A model generated the notes under the pieces. That model was not told the origin of the DNA and made no database searches. It saw only the letters and a list, made by a program, of their open reading frames with translations. DNA of 55,227 nt from Methylacidiphilum sp. Yel (GTDB taxonomy: Bacteria > Verrucomicrobiota > Verrucomicrobiia > Methylacidiphilales > Methylacidiphilaceae): NCBI RefSeq assembly GCF_004421185.1, contig NZ_LXQB01000001.1, positions 1 through 55,227 of the forward strand. The letters run 5' to 3'. The translations under genes and the position numbers were made by a program. Of the stretch, positions 139 through 5,241 are shown in pieces (position 1 is the stretch's first letter; the number at the start of each line of letters is the position of its first letter).

Positions 139-1194
139 CTATAGTATAGAAACAACTCGACACCCGTGGCATGAAAAGCCTGCGCCAAAACTGAACAACC
201 AAAGTTCTTTTTCTATTGGCTGGGATTCAATTCCTTTTTGAAAGGCGAACATAACCGATGGACTGCTCATATTGCCAAAAGCTTTAAGAACTGCCTCGCT
301 CTCTTCGAATTTTCCACTAGGCAAGGCTTTTCTTAATTCGGTCAATACCTCTTTCCCTCCCGGATGAGCAATGAGCCTTTTCGAATCAGTTTGCGCATGC
401 TTTTCAAATCTTTTATAAAGTTCCCATACCGCTTCAGTGGCAAGCACAGGTACCGTTCGATGAAGTTTATTCCGAAGCTTGCCAAAAGCATTTTCGAACC
501 GAAGCTTCTCTCGATTTTTTGGAATATGTAATGAAGAAAAATCTTTGCAATGCCATCCTAAACCCTTTTTCGTATGGTGCCATAGGGTGGTATTGACCCC
601 ATCGGCAAAAATACAAAGGCTAACCAGACATCCTGGATCATCGTCCACATAGAAAGCCGTCGAAGAAAGTTCTACGGCAATGGCAGCAGCATAGCAATCT
701 GGGTTTTCTTTTAGAAAACCTTTGACCGAATACAGCATAGGGAGAGCTGCTCCGCAGCCATGGCCTACGATATCGATTAAAAAACTATCCGGTCGCATTC
801 CCACTTTCTCTGCAATGTGACTGGAAAGGCCTGGACAAAGATAACCCGTGCAGGTACAAACAAAAAGGGCGTCCAGTTCTGTGGCCTTGAGTCCAGATTG
901 ATCCAGCGCAGCTTTGAGGGATTTTGCAGCCAGTGCAGGAGCCAATTTTTCAAAGGCCTTGTTTAAAGCTTCTGCCGACATCTCAAAGACTGACTCGATA
1001 GGGTCCACAGCAAAATACCGGCGTTCAATCCAGCTATCTCCAAGTAGAATTTTTTTTACTAAATCCAAAGAAGCCTCTTTGAGGGTTTTAGCCGCTATAG
1101 ACTGGCTAAAGATTTCCCAGCATTCAGACTGCGTATAACCATGCTCTGGGACCATGGAGCAGATAGATTGAAGTATCATAGTCTCTTTATGCAT
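139..1194 (-). CDS. Type III polyketide synthase (chalcone/stilbene synthase family)
   Basis: 351 aa, the usual length for a type III PKS. These homodimeric ketosynthases condense a starter acyl-CoA with malonyl-CoA units and cyclise the product to a pyrone, resorcinol or similar ring. The catalytic triad is visible: Cys147 in GHGCGAALP, His277 in AHPGG and Asn308 in FGNMSSP. It is the last gene of a minus-strand operon with a flavoprotein and a methyltransferase, the same three activities as the Streptomyces srsABC phenolic-lipid cluster, so a methylated and oxidised polyketide lipid is a reasonable guess. Starter unit and product cannot be read from the sequence. A second in-frame ATG at codon 6 is a possible alternative start. 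The stop codon lies only 19 bases from the contig-end repeat. Confidence 0.9.
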   Translation of the reverse strand: MHKETMILQSICSMVPEHGYTQSECWEIFSQSIAAKTLKEASLDLVKKILLGDSWIERRYFAVDPIESVFEMSAEALNKAFEKLAPALAAKSLKAALDQSGLKATELDALFVCTCTGYLCPGLSSHIAEKVGMRPDSFLIDIVGHGCGAALPMLYSVKGFLKENPDCYAAAIAVELSSTAFYVDDDPGCLVSLCIFADGVNTTLWHHTKKGLGWHCKDFSSLHIPKNREKLRFENAFGKLRNKLHRTVPVLATEAVWELYKRFEKHAQTDSKRLIAHPGGKEVLTELRKALPSGKFEESEAVLKAFGNMSSPSVMFAFQKGIESQPIEKELWLFSFGAGFSCHGCRVVSIL

Positions 1195-1269
1195 AAAATA
1201 TAGTCTAGAAGCGGACAGGAGACTAAACGAATTCTTAGATTTTCCCTGTATTAGTCATTAGTAGTTTGA

Positions 1270-2292
1270 CTAAGGCTCCATGGACCTAGTCAAGGTATAA
1301 AGAAAGGAAGCGATAGGCTTTTTGATCAGCACCGATTGGAGGGGAGATTGTTTAAAAAGAAGAGGGTGCAAGCAAAGGCCAAGGGTTATCCGAAGGGCAA
1401 AGGTCTTTTTCAGTTTTTGGTGGATTTGCCTTAGGGTTTCTGCCCAACTTTTGGAGCCTTGGGCGTAGGCTATGAGGTCATCGAGGGCTAAAGCGGCCGA
1501 TTCCATAGCCATGGCCATACCGTTTCCTAGGAAAGGTGGGAGCACGCCAAAGGCATCTCCCAGGGCTACCATAGGTTCGGACTTAGTCGGTTGGAATCCA
1601 AGAGAAAAAGAAGGAATGGCTACAAAACTCTTTTCCATAAAGTTAGCTTCTTCTAAGTAATGGTAAGGCTTTGCAAGCTGCGATGCATTGAGAAAAGAGG
1701 CAAAGAGTTCTTTTTTAGACGTAACCAAAAATTTCTTATTTTTGAATAACCCACAAAGGTTAACGGTGCCATGCCCGATCTTGCAAAGCCCAACGTAGCC
1801 GTCTTTGGCTGCATACATTTCCAAATCATGTTTTAATTCAATCCCTTGGAGATGCACTTTAAGCCCGATCCATGGTCCACCAATCCGCTGTTTACCGGTA
1901 GCCAAGACAACAGCTTCGTGATAGAGGGTAGTAGGATCGCACCGGGTTTTTGTATACAGACTGCCCCCATGATCCACGAAAAGTTGTGCAAGCTCTGTAT
2001 CTAACCGTTCTCGAGGGGTTAAATACACAGGCAAAGTGAAGCGAAGAAGGGTTGGTTTGCTATCTCCGATCGATAGACTGGCCGATTGAGCCAGCGGAAA
2101 CCGATCGAGGATCGGCATGATTCCTAATTGCTGAATTACCCTTTGAGGCAGCCCTGAAAGGAATTCCCCGCAGACTTTTTTAAGCGGATAATCATTTCTT
2201 TCGTAGACAGCAACTGGGATCTTGTAGCGACGCAGTCCTATGCCCAAAGCTAAGCCAGCTAGTCCTCCGCCAATGATCGTAATGGATTTCAT
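1270..2292 (-). CDS. FAD-dependent oxidoreductase, geranylgeranyl-reductase/monooxygenase type
   Basis: 340 aa. The N-terminus has the dinucleotide-binding motif GGGLAGLALG (residues 8-17), then YERNDYPLKKVCGEFLSG, which is characteristic of the geranylgeranyl reductase-like branch of FAD monooxygenases. The second flavin motif, GDAFGVLPPFLGNGMAMA, is in the C-terminal third. The start codon overlaps the stop of the upstream methyltransferase by 4 bases, so the two are translationally coupled. The polyketide synthase follows 75 bases downstream. By analogy with flavoproteins in type III PKS clusters it probably hydroxylates or reduces the polyketide product; a role in saturating an isoprenoid chain is the alternative. 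Confidence 0.82.
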   Translation of the reverse strand: MKSITIIGGGLAGLALGIGLRRYKIPVAVYERNDYPLKKVCGEFLSGLPQRVIQQLGIMPILDRFPLAQSASLSIGDSKPTLLRFTLPVYLTPRERLDTELAQLFVDHGGSLYTKTRCDPTTLYHEAVVLATGKQRIGGPWIGLKVHLQGIELKHDLEMYAAKDGYVGLCKIGHGTVNLCGLFKNKKFLVTSKKELFASFLNASQLAKPYHYLEEANFMEKSFVAIPSFSLGFQPTKSEPMVALGDAFGVLPPFLGNGMAMAMESAALALDDLIAYAQGSKSWAETLRQIHQKLKKTFALRITLGLCLHPLLFKQSPLQSVLIKKPIASFLYTLTRSMEP

Positions 2293-2969
2293 TTTTTTGT
2301 GGCTTCTAACCGGTAAGCTCCCAAGAGGGTTACATCGATCTTATATTGCCACTGCTTGGAACTGAGATTTAAAAGCTCTGGCAGTTCCAATCCCATAAAC
2401 CCACTCTTGATGCTTAGCCAACCGTCATGAAAGGTTATTTGATTGAGTCCGACTAATCTGAGCAAGAACAGTTCGAAGAGAGAAAGAGAAGAACGGAGTG
2501 GTTCAATACAAAAGAGGCAAAGGGCAGAGAGCTGTACGATCCAATTGCCAATGATAGCCAGTTGGGCAGAGGAAAAATGATGCAGCACCATATTGGCTAG
2601 TATGCCATGGTAGCTTCCTGGGGCAAAGGTGCCAGTGTTAATCAGATCAAAAAGATCGGTTTGAATCCACGGCCAAGGAGCAGGCCAGTATTGTGGCCTA
2701 GGAAACCTATCTATTCCCGTTAGCAACAGATATTTTTGTAACAACGGATCGGCATAAAGGAACCTTCCCATGGACCCATCGCCTGCGCCTATTTCTATAA
2801 AGTTTACTGCTCCCTGTAGAGAGACTATTTGCCGAAGCCTTTTTTTAAACCATACAAAATTTCCCATTATATAATTAATTTTCTTTAGTCCTTTTCTTCC
2901 TTTTTTAGCCAGATAAGAATCATAAGCCAACTCATCCAGGTATTCCTTTTCTTCGAGTTTTCTTTGCAT
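2289..2969 (-). CDS. Class I SAM-dependent methyltransferase of the polyketide operon
   Basis: 226 aa from the chosen ATG. SAM-binding motif I is FIEIGAGDGSMG, motif II lies around TGIDRFPRP, and the post-motif strand is ILANMVLHHF. The reading frame is open further upstream to a TTG at 3014, but that TTG touches its purine tract with no spacing. The ATG at 2969 instead follows GAGAGGGGGG at a suitable distance, so it is preferred. It is the first gene of the operon and overlaps the flavoprotein gene by 4 bases. The likely job is methylation of the polyketide or its oxidised derivative; the substrate is not visible. Confidence 0.78.
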   Translation of the reverse strand: MQRKLEEKEYLDELAYDSYLAKKGRKGLKKINYIMGNFVWFKKRLRQIVSLQGAVNFIEIGAGDGSMGRFLYADPLLQKYLLLTGIDRFPRPQYWPAPWPWIQTDLFDLINTGTFAPGSYHGILANMVLHHFSSAQLAIIGNWIVQLSALCLFCIEPLRSSLSLFELFLLRLVGLNQITFHDGWLSIKSGFMGLELPELLNLSSKQWQYKIDVTLLGAYRLEATKK

Positions 2970-3200
2970 GAAGCCCCCCCTCTCTTTTTTTCCCTCCAAG
3001 ATAGAGCTTGCCAACCTTCTTGAAGTTCTCCTACAAAAAGGAGAGTTTTTGACTCTTCAAAAGAAGGAAGGACTAGAGCTTTCTTTCTCTCTCTCTTTTT
3101 AAAGATATAGCCTAGAGCAAGGAAAAGGAACAGGAAAGATCTTTTGGCAGGCTGTCTATGCTTCTTTTAAAAACTCATAGAAAAAGCAAAACCCAAAAGA

Positions 3201-4289
3201 TCAGCCTTTAGTGTACCATCCTTGAGTTTTTTTCACGATTGCCACAACAGAGAGCATGACGGGAACTTCGATGAGTACGCCGACAACAGTTGCCAGTGCT
3301 GCTCCAGAGTCTAGTCCATAAAGACTGATGGCTGTGGCCACAGCGAGTTCAAAAAAATTACTTGCTCCAATCAGAGCGGAAGGGCCAGCGGCACAGTGAG
3401 CCACTTTGAACTTTCGATTGAGCATATAAGCTAAGGCCGAGTTGAAATAGACCTGCACCAAGATAGGAATAGCAAGGAGCAGAATGACAAGAGGGTTATG
3501 CAGAATGACTTTTCCTTGAAAGCCGAATAGCAAGATAAGGGTTGCCAGCAGGGCAAAGAGGGTAGGATTATGGAGCAGGGAAAGTACCCTATCGAGCTTT
3601 TGCTTCCCTCCCTCTTTAAGAATTCTTGCACGGAGCCATTGACTAAAGAGAAGGGGGATGAGGATATAGAAGATGACTGAGAGCAGTAAAGTGTCCCAGG
3701 GCACGTGGAGGGAAGAAACACCAAGGAGCAACCCAACAATGGGAGCGAAAGCAAACACCATGATAGTATCATTGAGAGCGACTTGGCAGAGGGTAAAGTA
3801 AGGATCCCCAAGACAAAGATGGCTCCAAACAAACACCATTGCTGTGCAGGGGGCTGCGGCCAATAAAATCAGTCCTGCTATGTACGAATCGAGTTGATCG
3901 GGAGGAAGGAACTGGAAAAAGATTTTTTTCAAAAAAAGCCAACCGAAAAAAGCCATGGAGAAGGGTTTAATGGCCCAGTTGACAAGCAGGGTGACAAGCA
4001 TGCCTCGGGTATGGGTTCTTACCCTGTGGAGAACACTAAAATCGATTTTCATGAGCATAGGGATAATCATGAGCCAGACAAAAAAGCCGACGACCAAATT
4101 CACATGCATGAGTTCTATACTTCCAAGGAACTGAAAAAGGCCAGGGAACAATTTCCCTAATCCGATCCCAGCGCCTATACACAGGGCTACCCACAGCGTT
4201 AAATACTTCTCAAAAAACCCAATCCCTTCTTTTTGTTCTAAGGGCTTTTCCACCGTTACTTCAGATTTCATAGCAAATATATTATCCAT
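3201..4289 (-). CDS. acr3: Arsenite efflux permease, ACR3 family
   Basis: About 362 aa with ten hydrophobic segments starting at YLTLWVALCIGAGIG. It exports As(III) across the cytoplasmic membrane using the membrane potential. Family hallmarks are the conserved cysteine in LLAAAPCTAMVFVWS and the glutamate in LIGASNFFELAVA. The frame extends upstream to a TTG at 4379, giving a lysine-rich head unlike the family, so an ATG at 4289 or 4271 is more likely. It is divergent from arsR-arsC and probably repressed from the shared inverted repeat at 4395-4424. ArsC makes arsenite from arsenate, and Acr3 removes it. Confidence 0.93.
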   Translation of the reverse strand: MDNIFAMKSEVTVEKPLEQKEGIGFFEKYLTLWVALCIGAGIGLGKLFPGLFQFLGSIELMHVNLVVGFFVWLMIIPMLMKIDFSVLHRVRTHTRGMLVTLLVNWAIKPFSMAFFGWLFLKKIFFQFLPPDQLDSYIAGLILLAAAPCTAMVFVWSHLCLGDPYFTLCQVALNDTIMVFAFAPIVGLLLGVSSLHVPWDTLLLSVIFYILIPLLFSQWLRARILKEGGKQKLDRVLSLLHNPTLFALLATLILLFGFQGKVILHNPLVILLLAIPILVQVYFNSALAYMLNRKFKVAHCAAGPSALIGASNFFELAVATAISLYGLDSGAALATVVGVLIEVPVMLSVVAIVKKTQGWYTKG

Positions 4290-4394
4290 TTTTCTAAAAA
4301 TATGGAAATATTTTTTTCTTTTTTTCTTAGTTTGTGATCCGCCGTTTTTTTTTTGCTTTTCTGTAGTTTTTAGTAACAATTAGGCTTGAATATT

Positions 4395-4424
4395 ACAATA
4401 GTTCCAATAGAATAAAACTATTGT
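4395..4424. promoter_or_regulatory. Candidate ArsR operator between acr3 and arsR
   Basis: A perfect 9-bp inverted repeat, ACAATAGTT (4395-4403) and AACTATTGT (4416-4424), separated by 12 bases. It lies in the only intergenic space between the divergent acr3 and arsR genes and ends 17 bases before the arsR ATG. ArsR/SmtB dimers bind imperfect 12-2-12-like palindromes in such positions, so one site could control both directions. The role is inferred from position and symmetry. Confidence 0.6.
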
Positions 4425-4441
4425 TCGTTTCACCCTTCGCT

Positions 4442-4810
4442 ATGGATAATAAGACGGCTCTTTTGATTTTAAATGCGCTAGCGCATAAAACTCGGATTGA
4501 GATCTTCAAGCTGCTTATAAAAGCTGGGGCCAAGGGGAGTTGTCCTGGGGAGCTGGCCGAAAAACTGCAAGTGCCCTTGACAACTCTTTCCTTTCATTTG
4601 CATCATTTAAAAAATTCGACGCTTATTGAAGCCACACAGAAAGGCAGGCAGATTGTCTATTGTGCTGATTTTGGAAAGATCGCTGAGTTAATTGGCTATT
4701 TGCTCGAAGACTGTTGCGGCAAAGATGTGGAAGCGTTGATTCAATTCTTCTGTAAAACAAAAGAAAAAGGGGAAAGGCCACTTTCAACTGAAAGGCAGAG
4801 CTGCAGATGA
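4442..4810 (+). CDS. arsR: Arsenic-responsive repressor, ArsR/SmtB family
   Basis: 122 aa winged-helix repressor. The DNA-recognition helix region is PLTTLSFHLHHLKNSTLIEATQ. The classical ELCVC metal site is absent. Instead there are Cys91-Cys92 and Cys104 near the C-terminus (LLEDCCGKD then QFFC), similar to the Acidithiobacillus ferrooxidans-type ArsR, which senses As(III) through C-terminal cysteines. The ATG at 4442 is preferred to a TTG at 4421, which would lie inside the operator repeat. No Shine-Dalgarno is seen before the ATG, so the transcript may be nearly leaderless. The stop overlaps the arsC start by 4 bases. Confidence 0.92.
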   Translation: MDNKTALLILNALAHKTRIEIFKLLIKAGAKGSCPGELAEKLQVPLTTLSFHLHHLKNSTLIEATQKGRQIVYCADFGKIAELIGYLLEDCCGKDVEALIQFFCKTKEKGERPLSTERQSCR

Positions 4811-5241
4811 TGTTCCCATTGCATGTTTTGTTTTTGTGTACAGGCAATTCGGCCCGATCGATCATGGCGGAGGCCATTTTAAACCATTCTAGTGGAGGCC
4901 GTTTCCGCGCCTATAGCGCAGGGAGCAGGCCAAAAGGACTAGTGCATCCCCTTGCTTTGGAAACTCTCCAATCTCATGGAATTTCCATCGATGGACTACG
5001 GAGTAAGCCATTGACTGAGTTTTTGCAAGCCAATGCCCCTGTGATCGATTATGTAGTGACGGTTTGTTCAAGTGCTGCAAAAGAGGCCTGTCCACTTTTT
5101 CCTAAAAAGGCGATTGTTGAACATTGGGATTTGCCAGATCCGGCTGCTGTCGAAGGGGATGTAGGCAAACAAAAAGAAGCTTTCCAAGAAATCTTTGACC
5201 TATTGCATCAGAAAATTCTCCTTTATTTTCTTAGTCGCTAG
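4807..5241 (+). CDS. arsC: Arsenate reductase, low-molecular-weight phosphatase (thioredoxin-linked) type
   Basis: 144 aa. The phosphatase-type active site is LFLCTGNSARS, with nucleophile Cys11 and Arg17. The two shuttle cysteines of the thioredoxin-coupled class are present as Cys87 and Cys95 (VTVCSSAAKEACP), and the general-acid loop is DLPDPA. It reduces arsenate to arsenite in the cytoplasm for export by Acr3. The start is within an ATGATG that overlaps the arsR stop, so translation is coupled and the two genes form one transcript. Confidence 0.94.
   Translation: MMFPLHVLFLCTGNSARSIMAEAILNHSSGGRFRAYSAGSRPKGLVHPLALETLQSHGISIDGLRSKPLTEFLQANAPVIDYVVTVCSSAAKEACPLFPKKAIVEHWDLPDPAAVEGDVGKQKEAFQEIFDLLHQKILLYFLSR

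Follow-up and report, generated by a model that had tools for sequence, protein, structure and literature searches.

Three adjacent genes in a 55,227-nucleotide stretch of the Methylacidiphilum sp. Yel genome (the window) raise the question of what a condensing enzyme resembling type III polyketide synthases (PKSs), a flavoprotein and a methyltransferase (MT) might make together, and which described system they resemble most closely. The three predicted genes are all intact and lie on the minus strand between positions 139 and 2969; they are transcribed in the order MT, FAD oxidoreductase (FAD), synthase (PKS). The class I SAM MT gene (2289-2969, minus strand, 226 amino acids) has an ATG start with a purine-rich ribosome-binding site upstream, and its stop overlaps the start of the gene for the FAD oxidoreductase, a protein of the PHBH/halogenase fold (1270-2292, minus strand, 340 amino acids), in a 4-bp ATGA (2289-2292, minus strand). 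The type-III-PKS-like condensing enzyme (139-1194, minus strand, 351 amino acids), whose family-conserved start is probably Met6 at position 1179, follows after an intergenic gap of 75 bp (1195-1269, minus strand). The tight spacing with 4-base coupling described in the prediction is hence found between MT and FAD but not between FAD and PKS; across the phylum, the gap has a median of -4 bp for MT-FAD and of 11 bp for FAD-PKS. The 75-bp gap holds a -10-like element, CTAGACTATATTTT (1208-1195, minus strand), which is conserved among the nearest genomes. A sequence like it, the putatively promoter-like CTAGGCTATATCTT (3102-3115, minus strand), lies upstream of MT. Within the window, elements resembling CTAGACTATATTTT occur in intergenic DNA only twice, before PKS and, as a near-copy, before MT. 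Because of these two elements, the PKS gene may have a promoter of its own.

The host genome comprises 2.25 Mb in 88 contigs and carries three AMO/pmoA-type genes (G000 C19, C33 and C60), consistent with an acidophilic, Methylacidiphilum-like methanotroph of the Verrucomicrobiota. Both ends of the contig (1-120 and 55107-55225) are copies of one repeat, which is found in 36 places in the genome, resembles the right end of an IS200/IS605-type element and abuts the 3' end of PKS; the last three PKS residues are SIL in the window and MRH in the nearest genome. Neither an Rfam nor a tRNA scan found anything in the window. On its other side, the trio is adjoined by arsenic-type genes (3201-5241) for an ACR3-like SBF transporter, ArsR and the low-molecular-weight phosphatase ArsC. 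They were considered as part of the system and rejected: linkage to the trio is seen in two genomes (G003 and G004) and not in G001 or G002, and they are for this reason probably chance neighbours.

The closest described architecture is that of the hidABC and planctomycete MT-oxidoreductase-PKS operons, not that of srsABC. In Cyanobium sp. LEGE 06113 and related cyanobacteria, hidABC makes hierridins and consists of three genes in the order MT, oxidoreductase, PKS, as in the window (PMC8086630). Cyanobacteria contain 47 hierridin-like clusters in two gene arrangements (PMC8086630), and an alternative order is known in both groups, namely hidC-hidA-hidB there and PKS-MT-FAD in loci L130 and L131. 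The same trio, in the same order (MT-FAD-type III PKS), makes up 58 planctomycete operons, among them those of Gimesia maris and Rhodopirellula baltica; in C. glutamicum, the planctomycete PKS yields pentadecyl- and heptadecylresorcinols (C15/C17), and a single further methyl group is added, probably on carbon, when MT and FAD are co-expressed (PMC10896814). Deletion in Stieleria reportedly gave no phenotype in growth or towards beta-lactams. As the G. maris PKS is reported to be 54.8% identical to HidC, the planctomycete enzyme is of the HidC kind, whereas the window synthase, set apart from it by description, belongs to another group. In the open-access literature, no characterised verrucomicrobial type III PKS was found, only antiSMASH reports.

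The original prediction had instead likened the trio to srsABC, which directs the synthesis of phenolic lipids in Streptomyces griseus. The two do have the same set of activities (PKS, MT and FAD) in common; however, SrsB is an isoprenylcysteine-MT-type membrane enzyme unrelated to the class I MT of the window, and the gene order differs. On MT type and synthase phylogeny (see below), srsABC was rejected as the nearest model.

The MT has no match in Pfam. It carries the motifs EIGAGDG (motif I), NxxLHHF and HDxxxSIxxGF, and an AlphaFold2 model built from 45 relatives (pLDDT 95.0, pTM 0.90) shows a Rossmann-like fold with the topology of class I. The model is closest to class I small-molecule MTs, both O-MTs (resveratrol SbSOMT and isoflavone enzymes) and C-MTs (CouO and NovO). 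Topology and structural matches agree with the class assignment made earlier, and the protein, as modelled, is a class I SAM methyltransferase that, going by these matches, may act on O or C. No isoprenylcysteine-type (ICMT) match was found for the MT, and a plasmid search with it gave no match. The prediction had set off the class I enzyme as a difference from srsABC. It is no oddity, because the trio, its order and the soluble MT all match hidABC and the 58 planctomycete operons (PMC8086630, PMC10896814).

The FAD protein shows the motifs GGGLAG, VCGE and GDA, and its model (pLDDT 89.6) adopts a PHBH/halogenase fold, with Z-scores of 32.1 for PltA, 31.9 for RadH and 31.5 for ChlB4 and with hydroxylases and epoxidases close behind; the structural alignment search lists both halogenases and hydroxylases. 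GxGxxG is present in all 41 FAD sequences. The halogenase motif WxWxIP occurs in none of the 41, though the nearest folds are PltA and RadH, and neither the strict DG motif of class A flavoprotein monooxygenases nor the geranylgeranyl-reductase motif YxWxFP was found in any of them. With all three signatures absent, oxidation of an aromatic ring is a putative role of this enzyme.

How far the three genes belong together was judged from their relatives. When 84,980 genomes were scanned with the PKS profile, 478 relatives came up, the best 80 of which are all from Verrucomicrobiota. In 63 of these 80 loci, which were chosen by PKS alone and several of which end at contig ends, iterated profiles of the window MT and FAD found the order MT-FAD-PKS on one strand. 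Some relatives are without MT or without FAD, FAD being nearly always kept. Five genomes, all from a single family within the same taxonomic order, and a plasmid of Caballeronia sp. SBC2 have the arrangement PKS-MT-FAD. By score tier, 73 of 288 sampled genomes of the phylum match (35 strongly, 10 at an intermediate level and 28 weakly), and the window-type synthase group is present by score, with residues checked in part, in about 45 of the 288. The synthase with adjoining MT and FAD was found in all four same-genus genomes searched; in another genus of the family, of which seven genomes were sampled, the synthase was found in none, and a scan of viral contigs with the PKS profile found no relative. 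Against the nearest genome (G003), pN/pS values are 0.017/0.236 for PKS, 0.036/0.209 for FAD and 0.042/0.166 for MT, a pattern indicating that the trio is under purifying selection. A PKS frameshift around codon 47-51 in G004 (L123, G004:C1:1633000-1648000) is likely an assembly error, since ACR3 and further genes in this 15-kb region are also broken. Recurrence across the phylum, with pN far below pS, takes the trio beyond chance, and the comparison of loci supports the view that condensing enzyme, flavoprotein and class I MT are a co-inherited set. Since marine and soil Verrucomicrobiota have the trio as well, the membrane role in a thermoacidophile suggested in the prediction is not needed to explain it.

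The synthase matches FAE1_CUT1_RppA (PF08392, 43 bits), Chal_sti_synt_C (PF02797) and ACP_syn_III_C (PF08541), all above cut-off; PF00195 matches 45 of 45 family members, and the window synthase scores below its cut-off. By alignment, the catalytic triad is C147, H277 and N308, equivalent to CHS C164, H303 and N336, and the motifs HPGG and GNMSSPS are present. The gatekeepers are Phe196 (CHS215) and Asn242 (CHS265). All of 45 relatives, five remote members and Caballeronia have Asn at the CHS265 position, an invariance that arises partly by selection, since one scan pattern contained LRN; A1 and the tier-2 loci come from genome searches in which this pattern played no part. The HidC clade (3.2222), compared here by its published description only, has Met at this position instead (PMC8086630). 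Membership in hidABC was considered on these grounds and rejected, as the architecture fits and the gatekeeper residue does not.

A second difference concerns the GFGPG loop, which is important to cyclisation in CHS/STS-type PKSs (PMC3036156). In the window synthase, FGAG (residues 336-339) replaces the FGPG of this loop, as it does in 80 of 80 loci (the best 80 of 478 relatives) and in five of five remote members, whereas each canonical type III PKS row covering the loop has GPG. FGAG is also found in the FabH of the same organism, and plant ketoacyl-CoA synthases (KCSs) have FGSG. In particular, plant FAE1-type KCSs have FG(A/S)G in place of GPG, HxGG and GN(M/T)SSxS in common with the window synthase, but they are membrane enzymes of ~500 amino acids, and the window enzyme has 351 and is without the KCS membrane domain. 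FabH resembles the window synthase in its FG(A/S)G loop and differs in having HQAN instead of HxGG and other partners. Against the PDB, the family profile scores 130-135 bits for type III PKSs and 110 bits for KCS, and the alkylpyrone synthases Pks11 and Pks18 are among the top sequence matches.

The position of the window group (V) was assessed in trees computed under LG+C20+F+G4, the rows of which leave out HidC, ArsB/C, SrsA, CylI and the planctomycete PKSs. The PDB rows (THNS, Pks11, Pks18, Ectocarpus PKS and KCS) are partial and come from HMMER alignments, those for KCS being the PDB side of the alignment and not the FAE1 query; the alfalfa CHS2 row aligns over its full length to 1bi5 with one visible mismatch. 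In a tree with 29 further type III PKS rows, among which the row labelled 'H_L165' is not hid-like, V forms one side of a branch (100/99). When plant KCSs are added and FabH serves as the outgroup, 16 canonical type III PKSs form one branch (96/98) and V falls outside it, with no supported order among V, KCS and FabH; V+KCS has a p-AU of 0.48 and V+T3 a support of 24/29. Holding V with all canonical rows except DpgA, the mildest nesting tested, is 9.9 log units worse (p-AU 0.0375, post hoc). Owing to long branches, placement of V outside the canonical clade is suggestive only. In the phylogenetic comparison called for in the prediction, V did not group with Pks11, Pks18, BpsA, THNS, DpgA, CHS or the hid-like group, and stands as a deep group of its own.

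The weak-scoring matches in the phylum are of a different kind. Of the 15 that were read, 14 have Met or Ile at position 265, His at 197, Trp at 256 and a GPG loop, and most members of this GPG-type group have FAD and/or MT neighbours nearer to the FAD (34-43% identity) and MT of a plasmid trio in Deinococcus than to those of the window. Judged by these residues, the group fits what has been published on the HidC kind. Verrucomicrobiota thus appear to contain two distinct groups of synthases whose partners are analogous; loci L161 and L164, of the intermediate tier, combine a V-type synthase with Deinococcus-like partners. Plasmid PKSs with a class I MT and FAD are found in Deinococcus sp. QL22 (L145 2498-5479) and Psychrobacter urativorans (L146 2489-5312), and a PKS-FAD pair with ACP/KAS genes in Novosphingobium pentaromativorans (L143 2180-4394); in all three PKSs, the gatekeeper is Met or Ile and the loop is GPG. 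On the Caballeronia sp. SBC2 plasmid (L120 5010-9717), a synthase of the window type, with 37% identity, FGAG and Asn, precedes MT and FAD; genes for an acyl carrier protein and for a ketoacyl synthase come next, which hints at an ACP-bound starter. On a Bacillus velezensis plasmid (L142 2300-3800), a BpsA-like PKS, apparently 5'-truncated and with no gene listed, comes right after an azoreductase-like frame.

By analogy with the described operons, the trio may be a compact set of biosynthetic genes whose product is an alkylresorcinol-type lipid, oxidised by FAD and methylated by MT, a reading that we favour at slightly less than even chances because its operon plan is that of two systems with a known resorcinol product (PMC8086630, PMC10896814). 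A long-chain acyl thioester would be loaded on Cys147 and extended with about three malonyl-CoA units, and the chain would then be cyclised, most likely to a 5-alkylresorcinol. The FAD enzyme would hydroxylate or otherwise oxidise the ring, and the class I MT would methylate ring O or C, which would give a hierridin-like methoxylated or a C-methylated phenol or quinol. Retention of the MT-FAD-PKS order in most of the PKS-selected loci and in the genus-mates, the Cys-His-Asn triad with GNMSSPS, an FAD model nearest to enzymes for phenolic and related aromatic rings (PltA and RadH), an MT model near SbSOMT and CouO/NovO, and purifying selection all argue for the alkylresorcinol-type lipid. Against it stand the replaced GFGPG loop, the position of the synthase outside canonical type III PKSs, Asn rather than the Met of the HidC clade, and the relatives from which MT or FAD is missing.

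It is the FGAG loop, together with the tree, that keeps two other products in contention. In one case, synthesis would stop at the triketide, lactonisation without aldol ring closure would give an alkylpyrone, and the MT would O-methylate it, much as Bacillus BpsA-BpsB make an alkylpyrone and then O-methylate it. The altered loop could favour lactonisation, and the PDB matches to Pks11 and Pks18 point the same way; but the synthase groups apart from both and from the BpsA fragment, and an alkylpyrone gives no obvious need for the nearly always kept FAD partner, so that this outcome seems unlikely. In the other, a KCS/FabH-like beta-ketoacyl synthase would carry out one or two condensations, and oxidation and methylation of the beta-ketoacyl product would constitute a new fatty-acyl modification. 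An FGAG loop identical to that of the organism's own FabH and close to plant FGSG, placement outside canonical type III PKSs with V+KCS at a p-AU of 0.48, and PF08541 and PF08392 both above cut-off speak for it, whereas the higher profile scores for type III PKSs, the HPGG/GNMSSPS motifs with MT and FAD partners suited to aromatic products, and the missing KCS membrane domain make it quite improbable. Transfer of a true hidABC homologue into Verrucomicrobiota, making hierridins themselves, is very improbable: trio and order are identical, but the gatekeeper is Asn and not Met, the loop is FGAG and not GPG, and the Met/Ile265 GPG-type group with its own MT/FAD in the phylum and in Deinococcus fits HidC better.

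With the synthase in a group of its own, the expectation that the product is open to discovery holds, and the product is probably a lipid. It is conceivable, if rather doubtful, that V is a deep lineage outside canonical type III PKSs that retained a FabH/KCS-like FGAG loop, evolved an MT/FAD operon of its own within Verrucomicrobiota, in parallel to the hid-like trio, and makes an undescribed lipid class. The MT-FAD-PKS operon plan is known; the FGAG/Asn synthase group is apparently uncharacterised. This widespread group follows the operon plan of alkylresorcinol synthesis, yet its gatekeeper is Asn and its synthases are without the GPG cyclisation loop. The group would offer a natural test of which residues turn a KAS III-like enzyme into a PKS that forms aromatic rings, and it may be a source of new membrane lipids in a little-explored phylum.
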